Positions 7,065 to 25,276 of a stretch of 27,777 nt of DNA are shown piece by piece (the stretch's first letter is position 1; the number at the start of each line of letters is the position of its first letter). The translations under genes and the position numbers were made by a program. The DNA comes from a virus: positions 1 to 27,777 of IMG/VR virus record IMGVR_UViG_3300035698_002488; one strand, given 5' to 3'. The notes below the pieces were generated by a model, which saw only the letters and a program-made list of their open reading frames with translations, searched no databases and was not told where the DNA came from.

Positions 7065-7684
7065 TATACTATGTTATCCCTGCAAGGTCAGGGAGTAAAG
7101 GACTTCCTGGCAAGAACAGACTCCTGTTCCGATACACTGCTGACGCCATCAGAAAAGACAACCATATTAAAACCATAGTTACGACTGATGACGATGTAGT
7201 CTACAGGATGGCGGTTGAGCGTGGCTTTATAGCGGTTGCCAGGGAAGACGAATTGTCAAATGACACCGCTAATACGAGAGACGTGCTGATTGACGTGGTC
7301 AACCGGTTGGGCCTAAAGTCTGATGATATCATAGTCATGCTTTACTTGACTTATCCTACAAGAAATTATAATAAATTAGCCTTTTATATTAGTATGTTTG
7401 TAGACCAGAAATGTAAATCAATGCTTGGACGTATGCCAGCGGAGACTCATCCTTATCAATGTATAACTCGGGACGGCAAGCAGGTAGTCGAGCATGATCT
7501 TTGTCGGCGTCAGGATTATCCTGAAGTTTATGAGATAAGCCACTCCATTATCATAACTAAAGTAAGTGAGATACCGAAACTAAACAGCAATCTTTATAAT
7601 AACGAGACAACCTTTATCGACGTTGATAAATATATTGATGTTGATACCGTGGAGGACTTATGTCAGGCACTAGCAGAGTTGTAG
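7061..7684 (+). CDS. CMP-sialic/nonulosonic acid synthetase (acylneuraminate cytidylyltransferase family)
   Basis: 207 aa. Predicted to transfer CMP from CTP onto a nonulosonic acid, giving the activated sugar used by sialyltransferases. The signature loop IPARSGSKGLPGKNR (6-20) is intact, with both lysines and the arginine that bind the CTP phosphates. IVTTDDDVVYRMA (39-51), RRQDYPEVYE (149-158) and YIDVDTVEDL (191-200) follow in family order; the last carries the acidic residues that bind Mg. The usual NG after the RRQ segment is replaced here (ISHSIII), so the sugar pocket may differ. It is at the short end of the family (bacterial NeuA enzymes are often about 220-230 aa). It could serve Neu5Ac, legionaminic or pseudaminic acid; motifs do not tell these apart. 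It is coupled to its neighbours by overlaps on both sides. Confidence 0.88.
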   Translation: MIYYVIPARSGSKGLPGKNRLLFRYTADAIRKDNHIKTIVTTDDDVVYRMAVERGFIAVAREDELSNDTANTRDVLIDVVNRLGLKSDDIIVMLYLTYPTRNYNKLAFYISMFVDQKCKSMLGRMPAETHPYQCITRDGKQVVEHDLCRRQDYPEVYEISHSIIITKVSEIPKLNSNLYNNETTFIDVDKYIDVDTVEDLCQALAEL

Positions 7685-8025
7685 ACCGTAAGCTGATTCG
7701 TAAGGTAACGTATGCGAGCGGAGCGCAAGAGTTAATACCAGATATAGATAGCCTAATTGAAGTTACAACACAGGTTAAAATCACCACAGTTGACTACACT
7801 CTACTGTCGAGTGATAACGTGGTCATATTTAACGGTAGTAATTTAACAGCAACAATACCGGCGGGTGTATCCGGTAAAGAATATACTATAAAGAATATAA
7901 ATAGTACTTCGCTTACCATTGATGCCGATGCATCGGAGACTATAGATGGTGAGTTAACTGTCGAGATAAACGTAAACGACTCACTCCAAATACTATTTGA
8001 CGGGAGCAATTGGATAATAACATGA
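7660..8025 (+). CDS. Small beta-structured phage fibre/spike-like protein
   Basis: 121 aa, nearly all predicted beta strand and rich in Ser, Thr, Asn and Asp. The segment from DYTLLSSDNVVIFNGSNLTA through TIPAGVSGKEYTIKNINSTS to LQILFDGSNWIIT follows a module common in phage tail spikes and fibres, in which a strand pair is followed by GK.YTIKN and a final .DGSNW motif. Its N-terminal 40 residues or so are not recognisable. It has a strong GGAGG site and overlaps the synthetase gene by 25 bases. Lying among sugar genes and far from the tail-tip genes, it may be a head fibre or decoration protein and a candidate acceptor for the glycan. That role is inference. Confidence 0.6.
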   Translation: MSGTSRVVDRKLIRKVTYASGAQELIPDIDSLIEVTTQVKITTVDYTLLSSDNVVIFNGSNLTATIPAGVSGKEYTIKNINSTSLTIDADASETIDGELTVEINVNDSLQILFDGSNWIIT

Positions 8026-9197
8026 GCTATATAAACGACACTTACAGTATACCGAAGTTCGGCGGAACAATTTATTATGTATCTGATGCTGGTTTAGATA
8101 CTAATAGCGGAGCAACTCCAGACGGCCCTTTGAAAACTATCGGTGCTGCCATTGGTAAACTTATAGCCGGTGATGCGATAAGCATTAAGGCAGGGACATA
8201 CACAGAGGTAGGGTTAGACCTTGATGTTAATTCCTGCGAGCTATGGTTTGAGATTGGTGTAATAATTGCACCGGCAACAGGGACAGCACTAACGATCAGC
8301 GGGAACTATTGTTTAACGAAAGGGATGCACCAGATAAACGCAGTGGCGGGCGAGATTGGGAAACTGGTCAGCGGGAATGGGTGTCATGTTGAGCATGGTA
8401 AGATTTTAGGCGGTGCCATTGGCCTCAAAATTACAGGCACCGGTGTTATGGTCAACAACTACGCTTCTGGGAGTCAGACTTCTATTGCATACGACATTCA
8501 GGGTATTCAATCACGATTGCAGTCATGTAAAACCGTAGGAATCGGGGCAAGTTATGGATACAAGATAAGTGGTGGTGTCGATACTGGAGTATTAAGTGAT
8601 TGCACATGTGTAGGACATGAAACATCGGGATATTATATAGATACTGGTTCATCGAACTGGACTATAGTTGATTGCTCAAGTGGCGGTGGTGATGGGAAGT
8701 GGAGGGACATAGACGATACCAATGTGTGGTCCGGATTCACCTTTCCAGAGACAAAATATAAGGAGATCACGCTTGATAATAGTCACCTGTACAACTTATT
8801 TCAGATAACCGGAGCAGTCGAAATCCTTGAAATATACGGACATGTCACGACTCAGTTAGCTGGAGCAAATACTAATTGTTATTGGCAGTTATTCAGTGCA
8901 ACGTCAAACGATAACATGACAAAAATCACTGATACCGACATGGGTGCTGCTGTAGTCGGTAGTGTGGTCATGAAGACGGAAAACCCTGGTAAGGCGGCGT
9001 TATTTTATGATGGTGCCGGTGTCGCCGTTGATAAGGGTGTTGATCCAAAGAAAAAGGCCGTTACTCTCAATGCACACAATGATGAAGATACTTTTATTAG
9101 ATGGATGTGTGCTGGTGATAATGATACAAGCGGGGTTATGCACTTTCATGTAGTATGGCGACCCCTTACAGATGATGGATTTCTGGAAGCAGTATGA
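8022..9197 (+). CDS. Right-handed beta-helix spike-like protein
   Basis: 391 aa from ATG 8022; I prefer this to TTG 8010 because it forms the ATGA overlap used throughout the block. The N-terminus has the DUF1565-like entry motif GTIYYVSDAGLDTNSG, then PLKTIGAAIGKL and AISIKAGTYTEV, which starts many parallel beta-helix proteins. Repeating short rungs (GTGVMVNNYASGSQT, IQSRLQSCKTVGIG) run to about residue 225. The last 150 residues or so (from about EITLDNSHLYNLFQITGAVE) look like a separate beta domain, as in trimeric spikes with a C-terminal cap. No catalytic triad is evident. It could be a decoration spike, a receptor-binding protein or a polysaccharide lyase. The same entry motif occurs in the tail gene at 19815. 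Confidence 0.65.
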   Translation: MSYINDTYSIPKFGGTIYYVSDAGLDTNSGATPDGPLKTIGAAIGKLIAGDAISIKAGTYTEVGLDLDVNSCELWFEIGVIIAPATGTALTISGNYCLTKGMHQINAVAGEIGKLVSGNGCHVEHGKILGGAIGLKITGTGVMVNNYASGSQTSIAYDIQGIQSRLQSCKTVGIGASYGYKISGGVDTGVLSDCTCVGHETSGYYIDTGSSNWTIVDCSSGGGDGKWRDIDDTNVWSGFTFPETKYKEITLDNSHLYNLFQITGAVEILEIYGHVTTQLAGANTNCYWQLFSATSNDNMTKITDTDMGAAVVGSVVMKTENPGKAALFYDGAGVAVDKGVDPKKKAVTLNAHNDEDTFIRWMCAGDNDTSGVMHFHVVWRPLTDDGFLEAV

Positions 9198-9937
9198 AGC
9201 GTTGTTTGTTTACTCTCATGTCTAATAACTTCTTCATCGCCTTCAAGGTTTATATGAAATCGTTCTTGGATAACAATCCGTGGTTCAGCGATGAGATGGT
9301 GGTACTTGCAGAGAACCTTCCGCCAAGCACTCAGCGGAGGATGCTTGAGATATACGACAGGATAACCTTTATCCCTCCGAAATACGGGGCTTATTCAGGA
9401 ACTAATTTTAATCAGACTATACCATCATTGAAATCAACGTATTATAAACTGGATGCGTTCTCTCTTCTTGAGTATGACAGAGTAATCCAATTAGACATGG
9501 ACATGATATGTCAGGGAGACATGAAGGAAGTATTCGACTGTGATGAGCCTATTGGAGCGTGTAGGACATATCGGAATAGTCATGATGCACTTGGTAAAGA
9601 TATAAACTCAGGTGTGTTTGTCCTGAATAAACCGGTATTGAATCTTGAAACATATGTAGAACTGATTAACAGAACTCAAAAGGGTCAGTCTATGCCCGAC
9701 CAGAAGATAATCAATCAGCAATTCAGGCACATAATGTTCCACCTTCCGAAGAAATACAACGTGGAAAAGAGGGCTTTACATTCTAGGACTTTCGATTTAC
9801 CTATTAAAGAGTGGATCAATATTCATTACGTGGGGAAAAAGCCCTGGCACGATCGAGATGATATACCTGAATCAGAGAAGCGATACGTTGAACTTGAAGA
9901 CATATGGTGGGAGTGGCACGATAAATATTATGGATAA
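9194..9937 (+). CDS. GT8-family glycosyltransferase
   Basis: 247 aa retaining transferase of the LgtC/glycogenin type, using UDP-hexose and a metal ion. The family marks are all present: RVIQLDMDMIC with the DxD motif at 101-103, INSGVFVLNK at 137-146, the PDQKIIN block at 168-174 and the C-terminal HYVGKKPW (211-218), which in GT8 enzymes binds the UDP phosphates. Length is near that of a minimal catalytic domain. I see no membrane anchor or signal peptide, so it would be cytoplasmic. Donor (Glc, Gal or other) and acceptor cannot be read from the motifs. It begins in an ATGA overlap with the spike gene, which fits a job in glycosylating virion proteins made at the same time. Confidence 0.9.
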   Translation: MKRCLFTLMSNNFFIAFKVYMKSFLDNNPWFSDEMVVLAENLPPSTQRRMLEIYDRITFIPPKYGAYSGTNFNQTIPSLKSTYYKLDAFSLLEYDRVIQLDMDMICQGDMKEVFDCDEPIGACRTYRNSHDALGKDINSGVFVLNKPVLNLETYVELINRTQKGQSMPDQKIINQQFRHIMFHLPKKYNVEKRALHSRTFDLPIKEWINIHYVGKKPWHDRDDIPESEKRYVELEDIWWEWHDKYYG

Positions 9938-10046
9938 AAGATGGAAAGCAAGAGTAGAAAATATGTCCGTGGGTGACGCATGGCACGAACTGTATCACGA
10001 TAAAAATAATTACATGGGAGTGTGGAGGTTGGATGATATAACATGA
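9930..10046 (+). CDS. Small unknown protein, 38 aa
   Basis: A 38-residue frame starting MDKRWKARVENMSVGDAWHE and ending MGVWRLDDIT. It overlaps the GT8 gene by 8 bases (ATG inside its last codons) and ends in an ATGA overlap with the next small gene. Overlap at both ends, as elsewhere in the block, is the main reason to believe it is translated. It is charged, rich in Trp (three) and has no membrane segment. No family recognised. It could be a small partner of the glycosyltransferase. Confidence 0.5.
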   Translation: MDKRWKARVENMSVGDAWHELYHDKNNYMGVWRLDDIT

Positions 10047-10210
10047 ATATAAAAATAATAGATATAGACAAACTGCACTACACAACAGCTAAATATCTTG
10101 AATCGCAATATGATTTAGAAGCATCATTTTGGTCATTCCCACCGAGCGAGGATGAGCACAAAGAATATCTTAGAAGTATATTATTAAAGGTTGGGTGTGA
10201 TATAGAATGA
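10043..10210 (+). CDS. Small unknown acidic protein, 55 aa
   Basis: Begins MNIKIIDIDKLHYTTAKYLE and continues with an acidic, aromatic middle (ASFWSFPPSEDEHKEYL) and the ending LLKVGCDIE. It fills the gap between the 38 aa gene and the methyltransferase gene exactly, with ATGA overlaps at both ends (10043-10046 and 10207-10210). That is strong positional evidence for a real gene. Predicted mixed alpha/beta and soluble. No family recognised. Confidence 0.6.
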   Translation: MNIKIIDIDKLHYTTAKYLESQYDLEASFWSFPPSEDEHKEYLRSILLKVGCDIE

Positions 10211-10731
10211 TATCAATTAGGAACGCAAGAAACGCCAAGAAGGGACTCCGCGACATGATAGGGTATATCGGCGAGACTTCAGAGATGACAGTCGTGGAAA
10301 TAGGTTCATACGTGGGAGACTCCACAAGGATATTCGCGGAGAACTTCGGAAAGGTTATTTGTATTGATCCGTGGGTAAACGGATACGATGACAGCGACGC
10401 GGCAAGTTATCAATACGATATGGAAATTATCGAGACACAATTCGATTTACTACTTGAGGAGTTCGACAACATAGCCAAGTTCAAGGGGCGTTCTCTTGAT
10501 ATAGTGCATGGGATAGCGGACGGTGTGATTGATGTAGTTTACATCGACGGTCTGCATACATACGAGGGCGTCAAGGCTGACATTCCTGCATGGCTTCCAA
10601 AGCTAAAGCAGGGTGGTTTCTTGTGTGGACATGATTATCAAAGTAAATTTCAAGGAGTGATTGACGCAGTGAACGAGTTCAAGACTCCTGACATGACATT
10701 TGGTGATACTTCATGGGTGATAAAGATATGA
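10207..10731 (+). CDS. SAM-dependent methyltransferase (Methyltransf_24 type)
   Basis: 174 aa class I methyltransferase. Motif I is VVEIGSYVGDST (29-40), followed by the acidic end of strand 2 in VICIDPWV (50-57). The characteristic VVYIDGLHTYEGVKADI with LKQGGFLCGHDY matches the Methyltransf_24 family, often found beside glycosyltransferases in surface-polysaccharide loci and likely acting on sugars. It lacks an N- or C-terminal extension, so it is a bare catalytic domain. In this block it could O-methylate a glycan; the substrate is not readable. ATGA overlaps couple it on both sides. Confidence 0.85.
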   Translation: MISIRNARNAKKGLRDMIGYIGETSEMTVVEIGSYVGDSTRIFAENFGKVICIDPWVNGYDDSDAASYQYDMEIIETQFDLLLEEFDNIAKFKGRSLDIVHGIADGVIDVVYIDGLHTYEGVKADIPAWLPKLKQGGFLCGHDYQSKFQGVIDAVNEFKTPDMTFGDTSWVIKI

Positions 10732-11765
10732 TGCGCATGGAGAGGATGGCGTTCGCATATAAACACAGCAACAGAGAGGCTCTGTATCATACTGTGCTAC
10801 GTGGGTACGACGGAACTATTCAGATGTATTGCAACCTGTGGAGCCGTGATTATACTACGATACTGCTTGAGGACCACGGAAGCGGATTTATAAAGACCGG
10901 CTATCCTGTAAAAAAGTCAGGCATATCACATAACTTTTATCCGTTCCAGCATGACGGGAAATACTATGGGATCGGGGGGGTTGATTCGTGGAAGTTGGAA
11001 AAGTTCTGGATTGAGGTTGAATCATTCGCAGAGTTTAAAGAAAAGTTCCTGATTAAGTTCAAGACTCCATACACTAAAAACGAGGCGCACTTTGAGAAGT
11101 TCCAAACGAAGATGCGTAAAAAGCCACACGTTGATCATGTTGACGGGCTGTACTTGCTGGAGTCAGACAACGGAGTGAACTGGAATGTCAAACAGCGTAT
11201 AATTACAGCCAAGCATCCAGGATTTCACTCTGCATTGGATTGGGGCAAGTCTTCAGAGTTCGATGGGCATATTAGCTGTGTATATAACAACGGACTATTC
11301 TATTTATATCTTAGAAACAATATACGCAAGAAGTACCGATTTATTCAATATGCTACCTCTACCGATTTACTGAACTGGTCAGAGTTTAAATCAATACATG
11401 TAGAGGGGCGGGATGATAATGTTGACAACTATTACTCTCCTGTAATCATGAAGCATCCAAAGGAGGATTTATTTATCGGTACAATTCCATACTACCATGA
11501 CCATTCGTGGGGATGTATTCAGTTGATAAAGTCCGAAGATGGTGTTAACTTTGAGAAGACAGGCGTGGCGTTCCAGGAATCTGTGTCTATGCTTCAGGGA
11601 GCCATGAAGAACCAAAAGCACTTTGTCAACGGTGTCATACCTCAAGAGACTCATGTAGATGTGTATGTCCATGAGAACTATCTCGGACTCGTAAGGAATA
11701 CGCCGGTTAATATCGTTAAATATAACGTATCATGGAAAGAGTTCAACAGGTGTTTCAAATGTTAA
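10728..11765 (+). CDS. Five-bladed beta-propeller protein, GH43/GH32-like
   Basis: 345 aa from ATG 10728, the start that gives the ATGA overlap (an in-frame ATG at 10713 is less likely). Blade-like repeats are visible: FYPFQHDGKYYGIGGVDSW, LYLLESDNGVNW, FDGHISCVYNNGLFYLYLR (178-196), YATSTDLLNWSEF (208-220), YYSPVIMKHPKEDLFIGTIP and IKSEDGVNF. The form 'sample strand, then D/S-DG-NW' is typical of GH32/43/62/130-like propellers that act on glycans. The three acids of a GH43 active site cannot be fixed by eye, so catalysis is uncertain. It may trim, bind or phosphorylyse the glycan made by the block, or be a sugar-binding protein. No signal peptide was seen. Confidence 0.6.
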   Translation: MMRMERMAFAYKHSNREALYHTVLRGYDGTIQMYCNLWSRDYTTILLEDHGSGFIKTGYPVKKSGISHNFYPFQHDGKYYGIGGVDSWKLEKFWIEVESFAEFKEKFLIKFKTPYTKNEAHFEKFQTKMRKKPHVDHVDGLYLLESDNGVNWNVKQRIITAKHPGFHSALDWGKSSEFDGHISCVYNNGLFYLYLRNNIRKKYRFIQYATSTDLLNWSEFKSIHVEGRDDNVDNYYSPVIMKHPKEDLFIGTIPYYHDHSWGCIQLIKSEDGVNFEKTGVAFQESVSMLQGAMKNQKHFVNGVIPQETHVDVYVHENYLGLVRNTPVNIVKYNVSWKEFNRCFKC

Positions 11766-13195
11766 TTATATTTGAGATGGCAAACAATCACAACGGAAGT
11801 ATCGACAGGGCCAAGCGTATCATTGATGGCGTTGCAAAGATAGCGTTCGACCATTCGATTGATGCTATGATTAAGTTCCAATATCGCAGCTATGACTTTA
11901 TTCATTCGGGGTTCACGAACAGCGAATACAAGCACGTTCGACGGTTCGTAGAGACACGGATATCATACAAGGGATATGAAGAACTTGAAGAGTACGCACT
12001 ATCAAAAGACATAGGCGTCCTGGTTACTCCATTCGATGAGTCGGCAGTGGACAGGATTACAGGTGATATCATAAAGATAGCATCCTGTAGTGTTCAAGAT
12101 TGGCCACTCCTTGAGAAGATAGCGGACACCGGCAAGGCTGTAATCATATCAACCGGAGGAGCAACCGAGAAGGACATCGACAACGTGGTATCGTACTTCA
12201 GGCACAAGGGGAACAATATTAGCCTGATGCACTGCGTATCTGAGTATCCTACAAGGGACAATTTCAATCTAAACTACATAGAGACTTTAAGGAATAGGTA
12301 CGGCGTGACTGTGGGTTATTCGGGCCATGAGAATCCATACCAGACAGATGTATGTAAGATAGCTGTCGCAAATGGCGCAGAGATCATGGAACGTCATATC
12401 GGGATTGACGAGTTGAATGCATACTCGATGGATATGCAGAGAGCCGAAGTGTGGGTTATGGCAATAAGGGAATCTATGGAATTATGTGGGAGCTATGAGA
12501 AAACAGTATCAGAAGACGAGAAAGAGAATATCAAATCACTACAGCGTGGAGCGTACGCATCAGAACCTATGTCAATCGGTGATAGTATCAATAGTGATAA
12601 CGTATATTACGCCTTTCCATGTACAGGCATTGACTCAGGTAGTGTTGGCAAATACAGGAATACCATGACTGCCACGAAGGACTATACCGAAGGGCAAGCA
12701 ATCAAAGAGACTAATAATATTGACACTCACATAGCCACTCTCAGGGGATACGTTCACAAGGCCAGAGGGCTTATTATGGAGGCCGGTATCAAGTTGGGTG
12801 ATGTGTACACCGTTGAACTATCGCACCATTACGGACTTGGTAACTTTGACTCATGGGGTGCGGTGATTATCAATCTAATCAATAGAGAGTATTGCAAGAA
12901 GTTGATTATTATGTTTCCAGGTCAATCACATCCTGAACACTATCACGCCAAGAAGGAAGAGACATTTCATGTGCTAAGTGGATCGATGAGAGTAGAGGGT
13001 GCTTTCGATTGTGAGGTAAACGCCGGTGATCTTCTGTTGGTAGAGCGACACAGGCCACACTCCTTCCACACAATAGACGGCTGTATCTTTGAAGAGATAT
13101 CAACAACGCATATTCGTGGTGATTCCTTTTATTCAGATGACAGAATCTATCTGTCAGACCCTATGGAACGCAAGACCATAATCGAGAAGCTATGA
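11759..13195 (+). CDS. Nonulosonic acid synthase (NeuB) with SAF domain, fused to a C-terminal cupin
   Basis: 478 aa from ATG 11759, overlapping the previous gene by 7 bases. Residues about 1-245 form the NeuB TIM barrel, which condenses phosphoenolpyruvate with an N-acyl hexosamine: FEMANNHNGSIDRAKRII, MIKFQYRSYDF, IIKIASC, VIISTGGATEKDI, GYSGHE (H190) and IMERHIGID (H213). The two histidines match the metal ligands of Neisseria NeuB. Residues about 260-325 form the SAF (antifreeze-like) domain. Residues about 385-460 form a cupin, HPEHYHAKKEETFHVLSG then AGDLLLVERHRPHSFHTIDG, with the HxH and later His ligands. It resembles the cupin fold of D-lyxose isomerase-like proteins. The fusion suggests that substrate isomerisation or modification is tied to synthesis. 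Product identity (sialic, legionaminic, pseudaminic) is open. Confidence 0.88.
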   Translation: MLIIFEMANNHNGSIDRAKRIIDGVAKIAFDHSIDAMIKFQYRSYDFIHSGFTNSEYKHVRRFVETRISYKGYEELEEYALSKDIGVLVTPFDESAVDRITGDIIKIASCSVQDWPLLEKIADTGKAVIISTGGATEKDIDNVVSYFRHKGNNISLMHCVSEYPTRDNFNLNYIETLRNRYGVTVGYSGHENPYQTDVCKIAVANGAEIMERHIGIDELNAYSMDMQRAEVWVMAIRESMELCGSYEKTVSEDEKENIKSLQRGAYASEPMSIGDSINSDNVYYAFPCTGIDSGSVGKYRNTMTATKDYTEGQAIKETNNIDTHIATLRGYVHKARGLIMEAGIKLGDVYTVELSHHYGLGNFDSWGAVIINLINREYCKKLIIMFPGQSHPEHYHAKKEETFHVLSGSMRVEGAFDCEVNAGDLLLVERHRPHSFHTIDGCIFEEISTTHIRGDSFYSDDRIYLSDPMERKTIIEKL

Positions 13196-13824
13196 ATATA
13201 ATTGAACGAGAGCAGACCAAGTATAATCTATTACACAAGAAACCGAAGTACGGCGGGCGCACTGGACGCACCAAGATGTTCAGGAAGGCTGACGACAAAT
13301 TCCATAAGGTTGTCAAAATTGCACTATCAGAGAGCGATACACTTCTTGATATAGGATGTGGGAAGGGTGCGTTTATTGACCTGTTCCACTCGATGTATCC
13401 AAAGATAAAGATTAAAGGCTGTGACATAGCGGAAGAAGTCAAGAGGACAAGGAAGGATTTAGACATCGATATATGTAGTGCGCACGACCTTCCATACGAT
13501 GACAACACTTTTGATATAGTGTGCCACATGGACGGCATGGAGCACATACCATCAGAGATTGAGGACCAGGTACTCAGGGAAGGCGTGAGGGTATCCAAGG
13601 AGTGGATATATCACACCACGGCAATACACGAAGTCAAACACCACGACGATGAATATGAAGCTCTTGGATTGGGTGCGGTACATATAAACATGAAGACCGT
13701 CAAGGAGTGGAAGCGCAAGTTTATTGAATTGAGTGAGGCAGAGGACTTGGACTTTGTATCATTCCTGGGTGACGAATACTGGATACATGCGCTATTAAGG
13801 AAGAGGCCAAATGGATTATCTTGA
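13192..13824 (+). CDS. SAM-dependent methyltransferase (Methyltransf_11 type)
   Basis: 210 aa class I methyltransferase. Motif I LLDIGCGKGAF (51-61) is complete, the acidic residue of strand 2 is in KGCDIAEEV (D78), and the strand 4 block is FDIVCHMDGMEHIP (107-120). The basic N-terminal 45 residues (KPKYGGRTGRTKMFRK) may bind an acidic partner such as a nucleotide sugar or lipid phosphate. ATGA overlap with the NeuB-cupin gene and a 14-base overlap with the next gene place it firmly in the block. It differs from the methyltransferase at 10207, so two separate methylations are likely. Sugar O-methylation is inferred from context only. Confidence 0.82.
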   Translation: MNIIEREQTKYNLLHKKPKYGGRTGRTKMFRKADDKFHKVVKIALSESDTLLDIGCGKGAFIDLFHSMYPKIKIKGCDIAEEVKRTRKDLDIDICSAHDLPYDDNTFDIVCHMDGMEHIPSEIEDQVLREGVRVSKEWIYHTTAIHEVKHHDDEYEALGLGAVHINMKTVKEWKRKFIELSEAEDLDFVSFLGDEYWIHALLRKRPNGLS

Positions 13825-14500
13825 TTTCATAAAGGGCAAGCGGGTTATCTTTGTCGGTGCGTGTCCTAACATTAAGGGACTCGGTAAAGGTCCAGAAATA
13901 GATGATTATGATGTTGTCATAAAGACGAACGGCTCTATACTGCTACAGGATGACGAATACCACGCAGACTATGGGCGACGGTGTGACGTGCTTTACACCA
14001 ACAATCAATTCCAGAGAGAGACAAGGCCTCTGCCTGTTGAAGCATGGAAGGCTAGAGGGTTAAAGCATCTGTGCATGAAGACAGTCAGCGAAGATGATAA
14101 GCGTAAGTATGACAGACATGTAGACGTGAGGACGTTCCGAAGGCTGATACACAACGTCAATATGACCATAGGCACTCCGTACATGGGGGTATATATCTAT
14201 TCTGACATACTGAGGTTTGAACCTGCGGAGTTCTTTATTACAGGTGTTGACTTCTTCGCATCTAAAAAGCAAGTCTTTGAGCATGACAACTATGGTGAGT
14301 ATATAAAAGGATACCTGCCTGACAACATACGACACCAGGGGAACAAGATAAACAAGGGCAAGACGAAAGACGGGCATCACTTCATGGATAACGCTAGGTT
14401 CATATATGGGCTATTCAATACGCATAAGAACTTTAAAACAGACCCGTTTATATATGAGCTACTTGATGACATCGTAAAGGGCAAGGTTCACCAATCATGA
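13811..14500 (+). CDS. GT29-like putative sialyltransferase
   Basis: 229 aa. The N-terminal stretch has the layout of the GT29 sialylmotif L: GKRVIFVGACPNIKGLGKG (9-27), then EIDDYDVVIKTNGS (29-42) and YHADYGRRCDVLYTN (50-64). Animal sialyltransferases read VGNSGNL..G..G..ID..D.V.R.N at the same places. A second block, TIGTPYMGVYIYSDI (119-133) followed by AEFFITGVDFF (139-149), resembles motif S, and a late HH pair (189-190) could supply the catalytic histidine. No membrane anchor, unlike the eukaryotic enzymes. With two NeuB and one NeuA homologue in the same operon, transfer of a CMP-activated nonulosonic acid is the natural reading. It could instead belong to a related uncharacterised Rossmann family, so the call is moderate. 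Confidence 0.6.
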   Translation: MDYLDFIKGKRVIFVGACPNIKGLGKGPEIDDYDVVIKTNGSILLQDDEYHADYGRRCDVLYTNNQFQRETRPLPVEAWKARGLKHLCMKTVSEDDKRKYDRHVDVRTFRRLIHNVNMTIGTPYMGVYIYSDILRFEPAEFFITGVDFFASKKQVFEHDNYGEYIKGYLPDNIRHQGNKINKGKTKDGHHFMDNARFIYGLFNTHKNFKTDPFIYELLDDIVKGKVHQS

Positions 14501-15309
14501 TTGAACTGATCGGCGAGATAGGAATAAACCATAACGGCCATATCAGCACGGCTAAGAAGCTGATTGATATTGCATCTGTTGCCGGACTAGATTACGTCAA
14601 ATTTCAAAAGAGATCACCAGATATATGCGTACCTGAATCACAGAAGTTCAAGCAGAAGTCCACGCCGTGGGGCGAGATGTCCTATATAGAGTACAAGCAC
14701 AGGATTGAGTTCAACAACGGAGAGTATACAGAGATAGACATATACTGCAAGAGGCGCGGGATAAAGTGGTTTGCTAGTGTGTGGGATATGCCGTCTGCGG
14801 AGTTCATGACTCTTTATACGGACACCGTCAAGATACCATCTGCCAAGATAACAGATATCGAGCTGCTAAAGTTCTGTCGTGATCACTTTGAGATTCGTCA
14901 CATGTCGACAGGTATGAGCGACCAGGCAGACATTGACAAAGCTATTGAGATATTAGAACCTCAATACATCTATCATACCAATTCAACGTATCCATCCCCT
15001 ATAAACGAATTGAACCTCAATTATATCAGCTATCTCAGGGAGCACAATCCTGGAATAGCGATAGGATACAGCGGGCATGAGTTCGGGCTTACAACTACGT
15101 TTGCAGCAGCGGCGATGGGCGTTGATGCAATTGAGCGACATATCACGCTATCACATGATATGTGGGGTAGTGACCAGGCATCGAGTGTTGATCCTGTTGG
15201 GGTGTTCAAGCTGGCGCGTGGCGTGAGGGATATCGAGGCGGCCATGGGTTCCATGGAAGAACGCGCAATCTATGAATCAGAGAGGGCAAAGCTTGAGGCT
15301 CTACGATAA
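14497..15309 (+). CDS. Second NeuB-family synthase, barrel only (no SAF domain)
   Basis: 270 aa. The N-terminus is a near-consensus NeuB: LIGEIGINHNGHISTAKKLI (4-23), DYVKFQKRSPD, FASVWD, VKIPSAKITD, HMSTGMS, HTNSTYPSP, IAIGYSGHEFG (H194) and AIERHITLS (H215), then WGSDQASSVDP. All metal and phosphoenolpyruvate contacts I can place are present. The protein stops just after the barrel, whereas NeuB enzymes usually run to about 340-350 aa with a C-terminal SAF domain that reaches into the partner's active site. It may therefore be a trimmed form that pairs with the SAF domain of the NeuB-cupin protein, or use a different aldehyde acceptor. ATGA overlap joins it to the GT29-like gene. Confidence 0.88.
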   Translation: MIELIGEIGINHNGHISTAKKLIDIASVAGLDYVKFQKRSPDICVPESQKFKQKSTPWGEMSYIEYKHRIEFNNGEYTEIDIYCKRRGIKWFASVWDMPSAEFMTLYTDTVKIPSAKITDIELLKFCRDHFEIRHMSTGMSDQADIDKAIEILEPQYIYHTNSTYPSPINELNLNYISYLREHNPGIAIGYSGHEFGLTTTFAAAAMGVDAIERHITLSHDMWGSDQASSVDPVGVFKLARGVRDIEAAMGSMEERAIYESERAKLEALR

Positions 15310-17596: not shown

Positions 17597-17904
17597 GCCT
17601 AGAGGAATATTTCAACGGGATATTTTATGTCCTTATTCGTCACATGAGCATGAGCGTACAAGAGGCAAACGCAGTTGACATGATAGACGCGAAGATGCTG
17701 CTGAAGAAGTTTAACGATGAGCGAATAGGCGACGACATATGGCAAGTTCAGACGCAAGGTATTGATCCGATGAAGATTCCAAAGTTTGCGGCACACATAC
17801 GCAAGAATGAGAAGAAGAATAAGCCGGCGAGGATTCCAACAGAGGATGCAGAGATTTACCACAATGTTTTCGATACAGCACTTAAAGGTATAAAGCATGG
17901 GTAA
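17267..17904 (+). CDS. Tail assembly chaperone GT-like fusion via -1 frameshift
   Basis: Made by a -1 shift near 17566-17572. The first 102 residues are those of the G protein; reading then moves into the -1 frame, which is open without a stop to 17904, adding about 110 residues (total about 212, hand count). The T part starts at LGGESSGVSLEEYFNGIFYV and ends VFDTALKGIKHG. A conserved G then -1 GT pair before the tape measure is a hallmark of long-tailed phages. The GT form binds tape measure and tube protein. An internal ATG at 17644 could also start the T part alone but has no good ribosome site. The T part overlaps the tape measure start by 8 bases. Confidence 0.8.
17549..17572 (+). promoter_or_regulatory. 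Programmed -1 frameshift site with upstream Shine-Dalgarno-like stimulator
   Basis: Slippery run G GAA AAC at 17566-17572. In the zero frame the codons are GAA AAC; after slipping they read GGA AAA. The P-site step needs one G-U pair at the middle base, so it is non-standard. The -1 frame has a stop at 17557-17559 and the zero frame stops at 17594-17596, so slipping must fall between them. This is the only good heptamer there. GGAGAGG (17549-17555) lies 10 bases upstream of it, like the dnaX stimulator. Confidence 0.75.
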
Positions 17905-19822
17905 GACAGTAATACAAGTAATACTTGATATGTCTAACGCTGCCTACTTAAAGGCGGTAAAGGCTGCACAGCGAGCCAATGAGAGATTTGGGAAAAAGAG
18001 CAAGATGACCTTCAGTCAGATGAAGTCAAGGATGCTTGGTGTTGCCGCGGCTGTTGGTGGTATCGCTCTTGCCTTTAAGAAGTTGATGGACATTACTCAC
18101 AAGCAAATGAAGGCCGAAGTCCAACTCAATGCAGCACTGAAATCAACTCAACATGTAGCTGGACTTACATTCGACGAACTAAAGAATATGGCCATAGGTT
18201 TGCAACGCGTCACAGCGTTTGGCGATGAAGTCACGATGCAGGGACAAGCACTTCTTCTTACATTTACAAAGATAGGCCGAGACGTATTCCCACAAGCAAC
18301 AGAGACCATGTTGAATATGGCTACGGCTATGGGTACGGACTTGAGAACACAGGCAATAATGCTTGGCAAAGCTCTCAATGATCCCATACAGGGGCTGTCT
18401 GCATTACGTCGTGTCGGTGTTCAACTATCACAACAACAGGAAGAGCAAGTGCGTAGGTTCATGGCACTTGGGCAAATAGCAAAAGCACAGAAAGTAATAT
18501 TGGGAGAGCTTGAAACGCAGTTCGGTGGATTAGCGCGGGCCATGGGTGATACCGCGTGGGGTTCGATGCAGAGGCTTGGTAATGCCACAGGCGATTTAGT
18601 AGAGACATTCGGGAACGAACTACAGCCAATACTAAAAGAGATAGCCGATAGCGCGATAGAGAGCGCGCATGGAATGGATGAGATGGCGCGGAGTGCTGGA
18701 CGTGCAACGGCGGGATGGTTGGAGTTGTTTAATGCCGATGTTGCTAGCGCCATAGTTGATACGACTCTAAAGTTCGGTTCATTCGTATCGTTAATAGGTC
18801 CGGCGTATAAGCTATTTGAGAAGCTCGGCAATATATTTCATGACAACGCAGAGGAAACAAGGGCGGTAAATAGGGAGTGGCAAGCTGCACAGGCTTCAGG
18901 TGAGGGGATCGCCGGATCACTTTTTGATGTAGCTGCTAATGCTGAAGCTGGTATTGAGGTGCTAATAAGGTACAGGGCAGAGCTTGAAGCGATTGGTAAT
19001 TCCTACCGTAACTTATCAGAGGTCGGCACTACTTTCAATAATATGTTGATAGATACCTTGACGACTACAGGAACTCCACGTGGCGGAGGGCGTAGGCGTA
19101 GACCGCCGCCCCCTATAGTCAGAGGCGGTGGCGGTGGTGATAGGCCTGTAATTGATCCTAATGCCGCGTTCATGCAAGAGTACCAGGAGAAAAAAAAGAT
19201 ACTATTGGGATTCCATGAGTACAAGTTATCGCTAGAAGAGTTCTCAAGAATGAAGAGGCGTGAACAGGAAGGGCAAGACCGGCAGTCATATGAGCAACTA
19301 ATCAGATTTAAGATGGGCATGGACACACAGGCTTTTGAGGCTGCTAAGATGTTCGCCAATATGGGCGCGGCTCTCATGGCATCAAAGAACAAGAAGATAT
19401 TCCGAGTAGGTCAGGCACTCGCTATAGCAAACGCTACAATATCAGCGAGTGAGGCCGTCATGAAGGGCTTCTCATACGGGCCTTTTATCGGTGTACCATA
19501 CGCGGCTCTAGTTGGAACTGCCTTAGCGATGAACCTTGCCAGGATCACAAGTCAGAAACCGCCAGAGATGGCTACGGGAACATGGCAAGTGCCGAGAGAT
19601 ATGAACGCCAACATACACAAGGGCGAGCAAATTATACCGAAACCAATAGCGGACTCTATACGATCCGGTCAAGCCACTCTTGGCGGTGGCGGTGCAAGTC
19701 AACAGCCTATCATAGTTCAGGTAGATGGACAAACGCTGTTCGAGATAAACGAGAAGCGCAGAACCGACCAGGCCAATATGATGGGCGCAAGTAATTACTC
19801 ACAGAGGTCAATATATGCTTGA
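17897..19822 (+). CDS. Tape measure protein
   Basis: 641 aa. Sets tail length and is ejected with the DNA. The N-terminal helix carries IQVILDMSNAAYLKAVKAAQ, a segment seen at the start of many tape measures, followed by a hydrophobic stretch GVAAAVGGIALAFKKLM (about 48-64). Long helical parts with few prolines run to about 390 (LNAALKSTQHVAGLTFDELK, LNDPIQGLSALRRVGVQLSQ). A low-complexity Gly/Arg/Pro linker follows at about 395-417, then a helix and a second hydrophobic region at about 506-549 (ALAIANATISASEAVMKGFS onward). By the usual ruler of about 0.15 nm per residue the tail would be near 95 nm. No lytic domain is visible. It overlaps the GT frame by 8 bases. Confidence 0.92.
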   Translation: MGKTVIQVILDMSNAAYLKAVKAAQRANERFGKKSKMTFSQMKSRMLGVAAAVGGIALAFKKLMDITHKQMKAEVQLNAALKSTQHVAGLTFDELKNMAIGLQRVTAFGDEVTMQGQALLLTFTKIGRDVFPQATETMLNMATAMGTDLRTQAIMLGKALNDPIQGLSALRRVGVQLSQQQEEQVRRFMALGQIAKAQKVILGELETQFGGLARAMGDTAWGSMQRLGNATGDLVETFGNELQPILKEIADSAIESAHGMDEMARSAGRATAGWLELFNADVASAIVDTTLKFGSFVSLIGPAYKLFEKLGNIFHDNAEETRAVNREWQAAQASGEGIAGSLFDVAANAEAGIEVLIRYRAELEAIGNSYRNLSEVGTTFNNMLIDTLTTTGTPRGGGRRRRPPPPIVRGGGGGDRPVIDPNAAFMQEYQEKKKILLGFHEYKLSLEEFSRMKRREQEGQDRQSYEQLIRFKMGMDTQAFEAAKMFANMGAALMASKNKKIFRVGQALAIANATISASEAVMKGFSYGPFIGVPYAALVGTALAMNLARITSQKPPEMATGTWQVPRDMNANIHKGEQIIPKPIADSIRSGQATLGGGGASQQPIIVQVDGQTLFEINEKRRTDQANMMGASNYSQRSIYA

Positions 19823-22373
19823 ATACTCCAATGATCATACAATTAAATTTGAACATACTCCGGTAATAAATAAAATAGCGTTCGCTGTTAATTCAGTCGG
19901 ACCAGACGCCGGTACTTTAATAGCCGAGTTCGACTACACCGACACGGACGCTAATACTATTTACGTGTCAGATACTACCGGCGCAGACGTGAACGCGGGG
20001 ACAGAGGCTTTACCAAAGAAAACCATAGCAGCAGCTATAACAGCCACGACAAGCACGAAGACGAGAGTGATAGTATTGGATAGTGTGAACTATGCCGAAG
20101 ATATAAGCGGTAGCACATACACCAACTTTCAAGGACTGTATGCTGATGTCGGCGAGACTCCGAAGTTACAACACAGAGTGTTAGACTTTACGCCAGCCGA
20201 TGCAAACAGTATCTTCGTAGATAAAACCGGTAACGATACAACGGGGGACGGCAGTAGTGCAAGTCCGTTCTTGACGGTTAAACACGCAGGTAGTCAGACA
20301 GACGGCACACACCAAGCGGTGGTGATACAGGACAGTGGCACATATACTGAGGATGGATATGAATTTGATGGCAACTTTAAAGGAATATATGCAGCCGACG
20401 GATACGCTCCGACGTTGTCATTTGATATAAATTATGATTACTTTTCGACCAGCACACTATCGGCAGATTCATCGATTAGAACATTTATACCAGATATAGC
20501 CTGTTGTGCGGTTGGTGCGTATGCTATGACATTATTCCTTGACCAGGATGATAGTAATAAGCTGAAATATTACATATATAACGAGAGCCTAGTACAAGTA
20601 GCAGCAGCAAGGGAAATATCTGCAAGTACGTGTAGCCATATATCATGCTGCACTCTATCAAGTGGTGCTGTTTTTATAGCATACTTCAATGGGACAAATG
20701 GTACATACAAGGTAATCGAGGCAATTGGGAATACTGTAATAGTTGCGGAGACTACATTTAATTCAGGTGCAACTGCGGTTACATCATGTTGTGATATTGG
20801 GGATGATGTTTTTATATCATATTCTGCGGGGAGTACATCAGTTTTATATACTACATTAAGCAAAACATCATGGGGCGTAGTCAAGGCAGAGACTACACTG
20901 GATACTATATCTGATAATGTAACATCTAACACATGTACTATATTGCAGAATGGTAACGCATGGACTTATTATGCCGGAATTGCAACGAATGGATATTGGC
21001 TAGAATTAAATTTGTCTACGTGGGCGACTGTTGACTCTGGCAATGATAGCACTGAATATTATGCAGCGGACTGTTGTACTCTACCGGATGGAAGAATACT
21101 ATTTGTGTCAACAGCATTGGCCCAATTCTTCTGGGTGATAGCAGAAACTAATGATATTTATGGAACAACTCACTCAGTATCGTCTATAGCAGCTACAACC
21201 ACAGGTACGCCAGGCGCGGGAACGTGTGTTTTTGCATCTGGGAATATATATGGTGCATATACTCCGTATATAAGTGGGGTTCAAAATAATGGAAGACATA
21301 TAGCATGGAAGCCGTCGTTATATCACATAGCAAATACCGGCGGGGCAAAGATGAACGGGGTGCATATTACTTCATCATATAACTATTGGATTGAGTATTT
21401 ATTCCAAGGGGCTGGCGCAATTGATGTTAAGTGGTGCGGGTTACATGATTTAAAATCTGATACAACAAATGTAGAATGTGAGGCTATATCAACTACTGGG
21501 GACTTGGTTGTTCAATATACTGAAATATATGACAACGATGCAGGTATTGACGTTACTACCACTACAGCGGTTATATCAGACTCATCACTATATAGAAATA
21601 GTTCAGGATATGCTATCGACATAACCGGCGCGGCGTCATCTTCCGGTGATATAACGATTGAGCACTGCACAATATTCGATAACTATGGCGGTGTTTTACT
21701 CACTGGCAACAACGGAACGAACGAGATAATAAAGAATTGCATCTTCCATGACTCTGACAACTACGCGATAGACGCGGCTACCACTATCACTCTCACATAC
21801 TCCGTGTATACGGATGCACTTGACGGTGTGACGGTTGGCTCGTTTGTCGTTCAGGCTAATCCGCTATTTCTAAACGAGGGTTACACCGCACCGGCAAGCA
21901 CCGACCTGAATGTCAAGGTCGCTCTACTTGGCTATCCTGCTGACTCGCCTGCTAAAGACCTTGCAGACGACACAAGGAACGCGGGCGCACTGAACGTAAA
22001 GTACATAGGAACGTCCACAGACTGGACAGCAATAACAGTATCAAAGCCGAATCAGATAACAGCCGACAAGTCCTACTCAGGCGCGGCCAACACACAGAGG
22101 CGGGACGGTTCATACTCATCTTACAAAGACGGACAGAGTGAAATAGTTGTATTGACGTGGGGTGGTATAACTAACGCAGACTACACACTGATTGAGACTA
22201 TGTGGAAGTCTGACGAGATGGACGTTCGTATCTATCCCGATCCGGTAACGAGTCCAGACAGTTACTCGACATATACGTTATTGCGTGAGGGATTGAGTGA
22301 CGGGACTCCATACTGGCAACTATCGAGAACAGGACGTAGCAACGTGACAATGAAGTTTGCGCGGAGTGTATAG
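19815..22373 (+). CDS. Large tail protein: beta-helix with an inserted six-repeat propeller-like domain
   Basis: 852 aa, probably tail tip or spike. Two copies of the DUF1565-like entry motif lie in tandem: NTIYVSDTTGADVNAG (about 47-62) and NSIFVDKTGNDTTGDG (about 131-146). Beta-helix rungs resume from about 510 (HITSSYNYWIEYLF) to about 690. Between them (about 205-500) sit six repeats spaced about 48 residues, each starting with a CC or C pair (C230/231, 278/279, 325/326, 374, 420/421, 471) followed by LxxG and aromatic strands, as in a six-bladed propeller. The last 115 residues or so (ITADKSYSGAANTQRRDGSY and on) look like a structural tail-tip domain. The insert is more AT-rich by eye than its flanks. 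Position after the tape measure fits a distal-tail or receptor-binding protein. Confidence 0.75.
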   Translation: MLEYSNDHTIKFEHTPVINKIAFAVNSVGPDAGTLIAEFDYTDTDANTIYVSDTTGADVNAGTEALPKKTIAAAITATTSTKTRVIVLDSVNYAEDISGSTYTNFQGLYADVGETPKLQHRVLDFTPADANSIFVDKTGNDTTGDGSSASPFLTVKHAGSQTDGTHQAVVIQDSGTYTEDGYEFDGNFKGIYAADGYAPTLSFDINYDYFSTSTLSADSSIRTFIPDIACCAVGAYAMTLFLDQDDSNKLKYYIYNESLVQVAAAREISASTCSHISCCTLSSGAVFIAYFNGTNGTYKVIEAIGNTVIVAETTFNSGATAVTSCCDIGDDVFISYSAGSTSVLYTTLSKTSWGVVKAETTLDTISDNVTSNTCTILQNGNAWTYYAGIATNGYWLELNLSTWATVDSGNDSTEYYAADCCTLPDGRILFVSTALAQFFWVIAETNDIYGTTHSVSSIAATTTGTPGAGTCVFASGNIYGAYTPYISGVQNNGRHIAWKPSLYHIANTGGAKMNGVHITSSYNYWIEYLFQGAGAIDVKWCGLHDLKSDTTNVECEAISTTGDLVVQYTEIYDNDAGIDVTTTTAVISDSSLYRNSSGYAIDITGAASSSGDITIEHCTIFDNYGGVLLTGNNGTNEIIKNCIFHDSDNYAIDAATTITLTYSVYTDALDGVTVGSFVVQANPLFLNEGYTAPASTDLNVKVALLGYPADSPAKDLADDTRNAGALNVKYIGTSTDWTAITVSKPNQITADKSYSGAANTQRRDGSYSSYKDGQSEIVVLTWGGITNADYTLIETMWKSDEMDVRIYPDPVTSPDSYSTYTLLREGLSDGTPYWQLSRTGRSNVTMKFARSV

Positions 22374-24185
22374 ATGTCAATCGTACTGACAATAGACAGC
22401 AACACGATTGAGGACTCTGACATAAAGAACTATCCTACCTCAAAAAGCAGGGTGGTGTCAGGGCGTAACTTAATTGGTTCAGAGGCCAACATAGTACTAG
22501 ATAATACCGATGGTACTTATTCAGACACAAGTACGTCTTCGATATTCTACGCGTCAAACTGGTTGGATAAGGCTGTCACAATATACGACGATGTACAAGA
22601 AATATACACATGGACAGGCAGGATCAAGAACATCACGGTCAAGGACAGCAACCGGACTGTAGTAGTTAAGACAGTCAACTATATCAGAGAGCTGTCAGAC
22701 GTGACGTGTGTATACACAACGACCGGAGTGACACCATCAGCGGCGGTGTACTACATATTGAATACTGTTGTTGGAATATCAACGGCCTTCCTTAATCTTC
22801 CATCGTTCACTGACGCCGCGAACACACAGACCGGCGCAAGCGCAACACTCAATATAACCTTTGCATCTAAAGATAATAAGAAGTGCATGTCTGTTGTCAA
22901 CGAATTGCTACGGCTTTCACAGTGCCACATATACACGGTTGACAATATCATCTACATAGAACAGTGGGCAGAGTGGGACGGGCAACTCGGATACGTAGTT
23001 GACGGTGACAAATACTTGTCAGCTACTCTTGAGACTGAATACGAAGAGCAAGTATACAACGCCTATTCGATAGCCTATAACAACGCTGGAACGGCTGCAT
23101 ACGCCACAGGAACAGTGGGCGGGACTGATGGTGATAAGGTATTCGGAGTGCCTGACGAATCACCAGGAACAACATCGGCATCGTTTAGAATTATATACGC
23201 CAATTCAACGGGCGCGGCATGGGCCGGAGCACTCGCCAACACAAGATATGCCAATCCCGTCAAGCTGTTTAAGTGCCAACTTGATTATAACATGTCCTAT
23301 CTACTCCCGATGGATCAGATTGATTTATATTTCTCGGACTACATACGTGAGCCTGTACGAATAACAGACCTAACGAACGATCCAAACCGTAGAAAAATCA
23401 GCGTGTCAGGATATTTTCTCAATCTTCCGGTCAACGTACAGACCAGGGATATAGAACCGCCCGCGAAGGTTGATTTAGTCCAAGCACTACCAATGACGAA
23501 TGGCGTGTTTTTGAAGTGGTCGAAGAGCGTTGAGACCGATCATCTTGGTTACAGTATATACTTTACCGCGGGAGAGCCTGGGAACTGGCGTCAAGAGTTA
23601 TCGAACTATGGACAGTCGCCTGTCGAGATAAAGAATCCTTCAACAACACCAGACGGTTATGCATATGTCACAATCTATGGATTGAATCCTGGGACAAGAT
23701 ATTACTTCAAAGTCACATCGTTCGATACCTCATACAACGAGAGCGCAGATTCAGGCGAGTTATCTGCAATACCGTTCAGCGGTGCGGATAATCTTTACAT
23801 GCTTGCCGGTACTGTATACGGTGGGCTTACTCTTGATAATAATAACGCATTAGGCGGGACGATTATATCAGGGTACACAACGTATGGAGACGGTGTATAT
23901 GGTACGGTTACATACCAACCGTGTGCGTTCTATCAGTCGCCTACTCTAGCGAGTCCTACAACCTTCGGCGAGTGGTCGTTTAGAGGTACAGGCGATACTA
24001 ACGATATACAATACCAATACAGAACCAGCACAGACAACGTAACGTGGACAGCGTGGTCAACCGCTGCGGATGCAATAGGAACAACAAAAATTACACTTAC
24101 TAAAAAATATATAGAGTATCGATATATATTTAACTCCACAGGTTGGAATGACACCGATACAATCTACACAATAGGGTTAACATAA
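22374..24185 (+). CDS. Tail-tip protein with fibronectin type III domain
   Basis: 603 aa. The N-terminal half, SIVLTIDSNTIEDSDIKNYP, GRIKNITVKDSNRTVVVKTV and on to VVNELLRLSQCHIYTVDNII, has the beta-rich pattern of tail hub or baseplate-like proteins of long-tailed phages. An FN3 domain covers about 359-465 (PPAKVDLVQALPMTNGVFLK, then GLNPGTRYYFKVTSFDTSYN), a common surface module that binds sugar or spaces domains. The C-terminal 130 residues or so (TYQPCAFYQSPTLASP, TFGEWSFRGTGDTNDI) look like a carbohydrate-binding beta-sandwich. It follows the beta-helix protein with no gap (stop then ATG), so the two are likely made in step and sit together at the tip. Confidence 0.7.
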   Translation: MSIVLTIDSNTIEDSDIKNYPTSKSRVVSGRNLIGSEANIVLDNTDGTYSDTSTSSIFYASNWLDKAVTIYDDVQEIYTWTGRIKNITVKDSNRTVVVKTVNYIRELSDVTCVYTTTGVTPSAAVYYILNTVVGISTAFLNLPSFTDAANTQTGASATLNITFASKDNKKCMSVVNELLRLSQCHIYTVDNIIYIEQWAEWDGQLGYVVDGDKYLSATLETEYEEQVYNAYSIAYNNAGTAAYATGTVGGTDGDKVFGVPDESPGTTSASFRIIYANSTGAAWAGALANTRYANPVKLFKCQLDYNMSYLLPMDQIDLYFSDYIREPVRITDLTNDPNRRKISVSGYFLNLPVNVQTRDIEPPAKVDLVQALPMTNGVFLKWSKSVETDHLGYSIYFTAGEPGNWRQELSNYGQSPVEIKNPSTTPDGYAYVTIYGLNPGTRYYFKVTSFDTSYNESADSGELSAIPFSGADNLYMLAGTVYGGLTLDNNNALGGTIISGYTTYGDGVYGTVTYQPCAFYQSPTLASPTTFGEWSFRGTGDTNDIQYQYRTSTDNVTWTAWSTAADAIGTTKITLTKKYIEYRYIFNSTGWNDTDTIYTIGLT

Positions 24186-25276
24186 TGGCTGACGCGTGGG
24201 TAAACTTAGCAACTAAATCAACGAGTGATACGGTGGCGGCTGCCGATCCTAATACTTTAATGGAGAACATCAGAGTAGTGGGTGGAAACGGAACTTCAGC
24301 GCCATCGTCAGATATTGAGACTCTATCTACCGCGAACAACTACATCATCAACGGAGCAATGCAGGTTGCACAGGAGCAGACGACTGTCAATTTGACGGGG
24401 ACACAAGATGATTATGTTTGTGATAATTTCAAATTTTCTCAATTATTATCTGCTGGTGAATGTACTGTATCACAATCCACAGAAGCGCCTGACGGGTTTT
24501 ATTATTCATCTAAAGTCGATATTACACAGATAGACGCATCTATCGCTATCGGAGAGTTTGCACATTTCACGGCCTTCGTGGAGGGTTTTAATTATGCTTC
24601 CATTAAGGACAAAGAGGTCACGCGAGGATTCTGGGTACGATCAGCAAAGACTGGTACTTTTTGCGTCTCGGTCATGAACAACGGATCAGACAGGAGTTAT
24701 GTCAGTGATATAACAATATCTGTAGCGGATACATGGGAATATAAAACCGTAACAATAACCTTAGATCAAACAGTCGGGACAGAGGATTACACAACAGGAA
24801 TAGGCATACAATTATTATTTACTCTTGCGTGTGGTTCTACATTCCAGACAACAGCGGATGCATGGCAGACTGGTGAATTTTACGCTTCAGCCAATCAGGA
24901 CAACTGGTTTGACCATGTTGACAATGATTTCTACATCACCGGAGCACAGTTGAACCTCGGCAGTACAGCACTACCGTTTCAGCATGAGGATATCGCAACT
25001 GTTCTGGCGAAGTGTCAGAGGTATTATGAAATAACAACTTTTGACATTTTATCACCAGTTAACGCTTTGAATGATGTTATTGGTGGCTGGTGTTTTTACG
25101 TTGTTACTAAGAGAACGGATGTTGCGCCAGCATTTTCTGCTCATAGCGGTACTGCCGTTGGGGTTGCGCAAAATGTTATTCATAATATTTACGGTTGCCA
25201 AGTATACTATTTTGCGACTGGAGCTAACGTAGCAGCAGAGGGAAGGGACACTGTAACCACAGACGCCAGATTCTAA
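24185..25276 (+). CDS. Tail fibre protein with jelly-roll binding module
   Basis: 363 aa. NNYIINGAMQVAQEQ (about 52-66) is the usual opening of a jelly-roll module found in phage fibres (N.LINGdfqvwQ). The closing element FYITGAQLNLGSTALPFQHE followed by LAKCQRYYE (about 248-282) is the matching end, as in many fibre and carbohydrate-binding proteins. The last 80 residues or so (GGWCFYVVTKRTDVAPAFSA to TVTTDARF) form a beta-rich receptor-binding tip. It starts in a TAATG overlap with the FN3 protein. Gly- and Ser-poor, without a long coiled coil. Likely the main host-binding fibre. Confidence 0.78.
   Translation: MADAWVNLATKSTSDTVAAADPNTLMENIRVVGGNGTSAPSSDIETLSTANNYIINGAMQVAQEQTTVNLTGTQDDYVCDNFKFSQLLSAGECTVSQSTEAPDGFYYSSKVDITQIDASIAIGEFAHFTAFVEGFNYASIKDKEVTRGFWVRSAKTGTFCVSVMNNGSDRSYVSDITISVADTWEYKTVTITLDQTVGTEDYTTGIGIQLLFTLACGSTFQTTADAWQTGEFYASANQDNWFDHVDNDFYITGAQLNLGSTALPFQHEDIATVLAKCQRYYEITTFDILSPVNALNDVIGGWCFYVVTKRTDVAPAFSAHSGTAVGVAQNVIHNIYGCQVYYFATGANVAAEGRDTVTTDARF

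Follow-up and report, generated by a model that had tools for sequence, protein, structure and literature searches.

Adsorption to certain hosts has been traced to an insertion in the distal tail (Dit) protein (PMC10688798), and in phi11 the receptor-binding protein has a five-bladed propeller as its likely site for GlcNAc (PMC4901313). Amplification of blades is a known route to new propellers (PMC9218822). A passage in PMC11144348 calls the phage information for the order of the Spirochaetia considered below extremely limited. In this study, a stretch of viral DNA of 27,777 nucleotides (IMG/VR record IMGVR_UViG_3300035698_002488, positions 1 to 27,777; hereafter the window) was analysed with respect to a predicted propeller in the beta-helix of its tail-tip protein.

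Tail-tip protein and neighbouring genes

The tail-tip protein is encoded between the tape measure and hub genes in the window as well as in its relatives (Table 1). The order tape measure, tail-tip protein, hub and fibre is common to the relatives L097, L111, L112, L113, L117 and L118 described below; as for a Dit gene, the position in the window and these six relatives is between tape measure and hub/Tal. On the basis of gene order, the protein is probably located at the distal-tail position; its N- and C-terminal regions gave no sequence match to classical Dit proteins in PDB, Pfam or PHROGs. The hub-like protein shares 30-40% identity with the hubs of the syntenic relatives.

The initial annotation had placed the insert between two beta-helix parts, and the domain searches agree. 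Two DUF1565-like head modules, matched below cut-off, precede it; the first is also matched by NCBIfam NF047854 at 2.8e-6, far below the family cut-off. The body that follows passed the curated Pfam Beta_helix cut-off of 25.9 bits with 36.6 bits. No database family was matched by the C-terminal domain in Pfam, PHROGs or PDB sequences. The window, L117 and L097 seem to have two beta-helix head copies in tandem (202-207 residues), against one in L111, L113 and L118 (117-128 residues).

Upstream of the tail genes, and following the capsid gene (4838-6205), a glycan cassette occupies 6255-15309. Besides the genes listed in Table 1, it holds two methyltransferases and a weakly matched MptE-like protein, and from its sequence it may represent a sialic-acid-like sugar pathway within the phage structural operon. 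A NeuB gene also lies just upstream of the tail genes on the L117 viral contig (G440 2955-3647); none is present on the L118 contig.

Table 1. Features of the tail-tip region and the glycan cassette (positions in the window; residues of the tail-tip protein)
Feature	Position	Strand	Basis or remark
Tape measure protein	17897..19822	+	Pfam TMP_2 3.2e-7; phrog_27166 1.1e-39
Tail-tip protein	19815..22373	+	852 aa; open frame
Beta-helix head module 1, residues 48-128	19956..20198	+	DUF1565 E 0.0015, below cut-off
Beta-helix head module 2, residues 133-204	20211..20426	+	phrog_4577 tail protein 5e-9
Propeller insert (predicted), residues 205-502	20427..21320	+	47-residue period; blade models; GC3 0.282
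Blade 1	20478..20621	+	CC 230/231 (20502-20507); weak blade match at 242-256
Blade 2	20622..20762	+	CC 278/279 (20646-20651); 23.5 bits, model without window blades
Blade 3	20763..20909	+	CC 325/326 (20787-20792); blade model 13.9 bits
Blade 4	20910..21047	+	single Cys 374 (20934-20936); blade model 6.4 bits
Blade 5	21048..21200	+	CC 420/421 (21072-21077); spacing and motif CCTLPDG only
Blade 6	21201..21320	+	single Cys 471 (21225-21227); weak blade match at 470-501
Beta-helix body, residues 503-690	21321..21884	+	Pfam Beta_helix 4.4e-9, residues 515-689
Conserved C-terminal domain, residues 691-852	21885..22370	+	32-51% identity with relatives over residues 585-852
Hub-like protein, probable fibronectin III domain	22374..24185	+	fn3 1.1e-4, just under cut-off
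Tail fibre protein	24185..25276	+	phrog_4492 4.3e-34
Cytidylyltransferase	7061-7684		
GT8 glycosyltransferase	9194-9937		
NeuB-type nonulosonic acid synthase with cupin domain	11732-13195		
GT29 sialyltransferase-like protein	13811-14500		weak match
NeuB-type nonulosonic acid synthase, second	14497-15309		

Repeats and predicted fold of the insert

Aligned with itself without gaps, the insert scores best at an offset of 47 residues; next come 95 and 96, about double that length, and the self-match score at offsets 46-50 was reached in none of 500 shuffles. Six units with a spacing of 46-51 residues were delimited, which lies within the range applied for beta-propeller repeats (four to twelve repeats of about 40-60 residues each). 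The six propeller-like units originally proposed from cysteines recurring about every 48 residues are supported by this spacing, the cysteine-independent period and the blade profiles. The regularity of the cysteines was likewise confirmed, as none of 3,000 random placements matched their phase coherence near period 48.

A blade model built from 15 blades of relatives, none from the window, scored 24.8 bits on the window insert (shuffles at most 5.4), and a profile of the six L117 blades scored 33.7 bits (best of 200 shuffles 7.0). Because such relatives-only profiles detect the insert far above shuffles, the repeats of the window and L117 are homologous. Within the window, blades 2 and 3 resemble each other with a z of 5.2, and blades 1, 5 and 6 match the blade profile weakly. 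The median identity between the window's blades is 25%, under the 60% limit for highly repetitive propellers; these blades are old and fully diverged. No known propeller family was matched by the insert in Pfam, NCBIfam, PHROG or PDB sequences, which is a weak test; propeller families diverge widely in sequence. Nothing useful came from searching PDB sequences with the protein, with L117 or with the blade and C-terminal profiles.

Two single-sequence structure models were obtained with a pLDDT of about 40 overall and 50-65 over residues 237-351. In this latter region of the low-confidence model the strands alternate regularly. Foldseek matches of the model in the PDB were mostly propellers from many families, and a second Foldseek look again returned propellers (best Z 10.3, rmsd 2.9 over 122 residues); because of the low model confidence, these matches serve as supporting evidence only. 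Propellers are usually closed by an N-terminal strand. In L117, the segment preceding blade 1 (NVSETTFHDAG) looks like a blade's final strand, which blade 6 itself lacks; together this suggests closure by the N-terminal strand. By comparison with L117, the outer strand of blade 6 in the window is probably supplied by the segment preceding blade 1. The insert is predicted to fold and close as a beta-propeller.

Relatives of the tail-tip protein

Queried with the whole protein, insert, hub or C-terminal domain, viral contigs and GenBank phages returned no homologue in close-relative scans. A one-genome-per-species scan with the whole protein gave one match, in the Spirochaetia metagenome-assembled genome VFJS01000012.1 (L097), with 38-40% identity over the flanks. 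A profile of the window and L097 proteins applied to 46 Spirochaetia genomes then retrieved the syntenic L111, L112 (interrupted by runs of N) and L113 together with the truncated L114. The viral contigs L117, 51% identical to the window protein in both head and C-terminal part, and L118, 34% identical in the C-terminal part, were found with a C-terminal profile. A search of 393 genomes of the phylum yielded matches only in class members already known, and plasmids yielded none. The homologues are mostly prophages in spirochaete genomes, and the phage is siphovirus-like with its nearest kin in Spirochaetia genomes and viral contigs.

Other routes to relatives were rejected or negative. All 12 matches in a scan with the degenerate motif FNSG..T...SCC were chance matches, and the tape-measure relatives L002 and L003 carry different genes downstream. 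The tail protein was not matched in 46 records of terminase and tape-measure relatives, many of them fragments, and in 24 of the longer terminase relatives neither tape measure, hub nor C-terminal profile was matched. Many environmental phages have a terminase with 49-56% identity to that of the window (484-2361). As the longer of these records did not match the tail-tip genes (17897-25276), the histories of the packaging module and the tail module seem to differ. Pfam matches of Dyp_perox_C in L117 and Peptidase_M23 in L111 look spurious, because no single stretch passed the limit.

The relatives share a layout of beta-helix head, propeller-like segment, beta-helix body and C-terminal domain. 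Relatives lacking the insert, as an acquired module would predict, were sought, and none was present among the homologues found (six syntenic proteins and a truncated copy, a small sample); every homologue has a propeller-like segment at the same site, weak in L112. The L117 blade profile alone scored 9.0 bits on L113, with L111 and L097 within the shuffle range; besides the window and L113 it detects no other relative. Beyond the window, L113 and L117, blades were recognised by eye via the motif L.NGN.F..Y; the propeller case is weaker for these members because it depends on this motif and on a profile containing some of their own blades. L112 matches the 15-blade profile at 11 bits, although it was not used in building it. 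Six blades were counted in the window, L117 and L113 and, by eye, seven in L097, L111 and L118, so that blade number appears to vary between phages.

Single relatives carry further peculiarities. L114 (5253-6110) starts with a lipoprotein-like signal (LIVLACSAC) joined to the phage's beta-helix head plus two blades and ends early, and a C-terminal fragment with an internal stop follows; this is a decayed or domesticated tail gene. The L097 tail protein has an extra segment of about 110 residues (approximately 560-670) between propeller and beta-helix body that is missing from the other members and by eye resembles small domains common in tail fibres. Downstream of the L097 tail genes (11766-14160) a radical SAM protein is encoded (Pfam Radical_SAM 5.4e-7), and immediately after it comes a Cys-rich repeat-like ORF (13255-14160) with no Pfam match; the two are possibly a phage-borne maturase and its substrate.

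Divergence, composition and origin of the insert

In the 15 pairs of six proteins, identity is 38-51% in the head and 27-51% in the C-terminal part, compared with 19-32% in the propeller, where in several pairs it is little above shuffles in global alignment. The short beta-helix stretch past the propeller has also diverged, with 19-40% identity. L117 carries six blades of 46-50 residues each, of the type SISVSVLSNGNVFIAY..TGKYIVLSSSDWSTVKSETTFHGG, at the same site as those of the window. They are near-copies with a median identity of 65%, above the limit for highly repetitive propellers, and blades 2-3 and 5-6 have 93% DNA identity, which shows re-amplification of the L117 propeller following the split of the lineages. 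With a propeller-like segment at the same place in every homologue, the insertion is ancestral to the family as sampled. Judged from these sequences, the propeller is an old, resident, fast-diverging module, and differences between phages lie in its sequence and apparently in its blade number.

The insert had initially been described as more AT-rich than its flanks, and this was borne out. Its GC is 0.397, against 0.459 in the head and 0.485 in the C-terminal part, and its GC3 of 0.282 (0.441 and 0.511 in the same flanks) is below the lowest value (0.356) of 236 equal-length stretches from the other genes of the window. At fourfold-degenerate sites, the GC of the insert is 0.268, level with the minimum of 0.265 in 236 equal-length stretches, versus 0.433 for these two flanks taken together (Fisher P 0.001). 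Because it is present at these sites, the shift is not due to amino-acid choice. Low GC runs on into the beta-helix stretch past the propeller (residues 503-584, GC 0.390), and the AT-rich block accordingly extends beyond the propeller. In the window, L117 and L113 the propeller significantly exceeds its flanks in AT content; in L111, L097 and L118 it does not. Propeller and flank fourfold composition are related with a slope of 0.40 and r of 0.94 over six proteins, that is, six points only. The weak tie between module and gene composition is compatible with module exchange; a difference in codon selection fits too.

The initial annotation had gone on to suggest a module acquired from elsewhere. 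A recent gain by the window's phage from an AT-rich source would account for the lowest GC3 of the window falling in the insert, for the fourfold-site shift and for the break in a BLASTP comparison with L097, in which homology stops at residue 204, at the end of head module 2, and resumes at 573. Such a gain is nevertheless improbable, as the relatives carry a propeller at the same site and the window's blades are homologous to those of L117; an acquisition peculiar to the window's phage is unsupported. Module exchange between phages is possible, and one propeller could have been replaced by another at this site. Only tentatively do we propose the wider scheme, in which an undescribed Spirochaetia-linked lineage changes the propeller at one beta-helix site by re-amplification of one or two blade units combined with module exchange, so that blade number and surface vary in an otherwise unchanged tail tip.

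Cysteines and proposed function of the predicted propeller

The insert is probably (about 0.68) a propeller that loops out of the tail-tip protein's beta-helix and serves in receptor recognition. Such a role suits the position between tape measure and hub, the conserved C-terminal domain, the rod and the fast evolution of the looped-out propeller, and the faster change of the ring relative to the rest is as expected for a part that recognises the host. In the proposed mechanism, the conserved terminal domains would anchor the protein in the tail tip and the beta-helix rod would grow from them. The propeller, with six four-stranded blades, would be looped out between two rod coils and displayed outside the tail tip, where it could bind a host surface glycan or protein. 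Divergence, blade duplication and perhaps exchange would then retune host binding.

Tailspikes commonly pair a propeller with an adjoining beta-helix, which would suit an enzyme such as a glycan-degrading depolymerase in place of a pure binding domain. A passage in PMC4901313 states that trimeric propellers occur in phage endosialidases. No enzyme family was matched, however, and by eye no conserved polar motif is evident across the blades of the relatives, which makes an enzyme unlikely. The equally fast divergence of the beta-helix stretch past the propeller would also suit a structural spacer or a trimer or hexamer contact, with fast change reflecting weak constraint and not selection for host recognition; divergence between the members is beyond the reach of a selection test. 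We consider this quite improbable, given that the propeller is kept in all homologues found and that blade number and fold seem to have been maintained through re-amplification in L117.

Much weight had first been placed on cysteine pairs at six sites. The six positions were correct, but only four hold pairs and residues 374 and 471 are single; Cys-273 is an additional cysteine in the insert. Four CC pairs are rare by chance (P = 0.0003, 20,000 shuffles), and cysteine makes up 3.7% of the insert versus 1.2% over the genes of the window. The pairs lie on the strand preceding the L.NGN.FIAY hairpin, predicted by analogy with other propellers to be the innermost strand of each blade. A functional ring around the propeller axis, binding metal or forming disulfides in the virion, would explain both the enrichment and the register of four CC and two C, which is far beyond chance. 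It is nonetheless very improbable: the pairs are not conserved and do not define the module, the corresponding residues being V-S, S-A and V-G in L117, the closest relative, and A-T and A-A in L114, and L113 having one CC. As L117 has other small residues at these positions, the cysteine pairs are most simply small buried core residues, neither metal site nor disulfides.

Comparison with known systems

The homologous set described here represents a tail protein that probably helps to choose the host and opens an entry to phages of environmental Spirochaetia. It allows one propeller site to be compared at different ages, from near-copies in L117 to the fully diverged blades of the window. The near-copies resemble the highly repetitive propellers derived from single blades (PMC9218822, a paper in whose main text the word phage does not occur), and the window's blades differ from those systems.

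By analogy, the evolved Dit (evoDit) of lactococcal skunaviruses, for which adsorption was tested, may be regarded as the nearest functional precedent (PMC10688798). As proposed here, a variable binding module lies between conserved N- and C-terminal regions of a tail-tip protein. The skunavirus inserts are carbohydrate-binding modules related to BppA, whereas here a propeller is placed within a beta-helix; insert-free forms exist in the former and were not found among the present relatives, whose terminal domains are placed with Dit by gene order and gave no sequence match to it. The nearest structural precedent, again by analogy, would be Gp45 of Staphylococcus phage phi11 (PMC4901313), in which a propeller is the probable receptor-binding part of a siphophage baseplate and is closed by an N-terminal strand, as suggested here. 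Gp45 differs in its five blades, triple-helical stem, tower domains, separate receptor-binding protein gene and lack of a beta-helix, and no sequence relation to the window protein was found in the PDB sequence search. According to a passage in PMC4901313, propellers also occur in the putative receptor-binding proteins gp131C of PhiKZ (seven blades) and P2 of PRD1; these belong to other phage types and protein contexts, and no sequence relation to them was found. The type of an evolved Dit or receptor-binding propeller is known, and the predicted propeller looped out of a tail-tip beta-helix would be a new variant of it.
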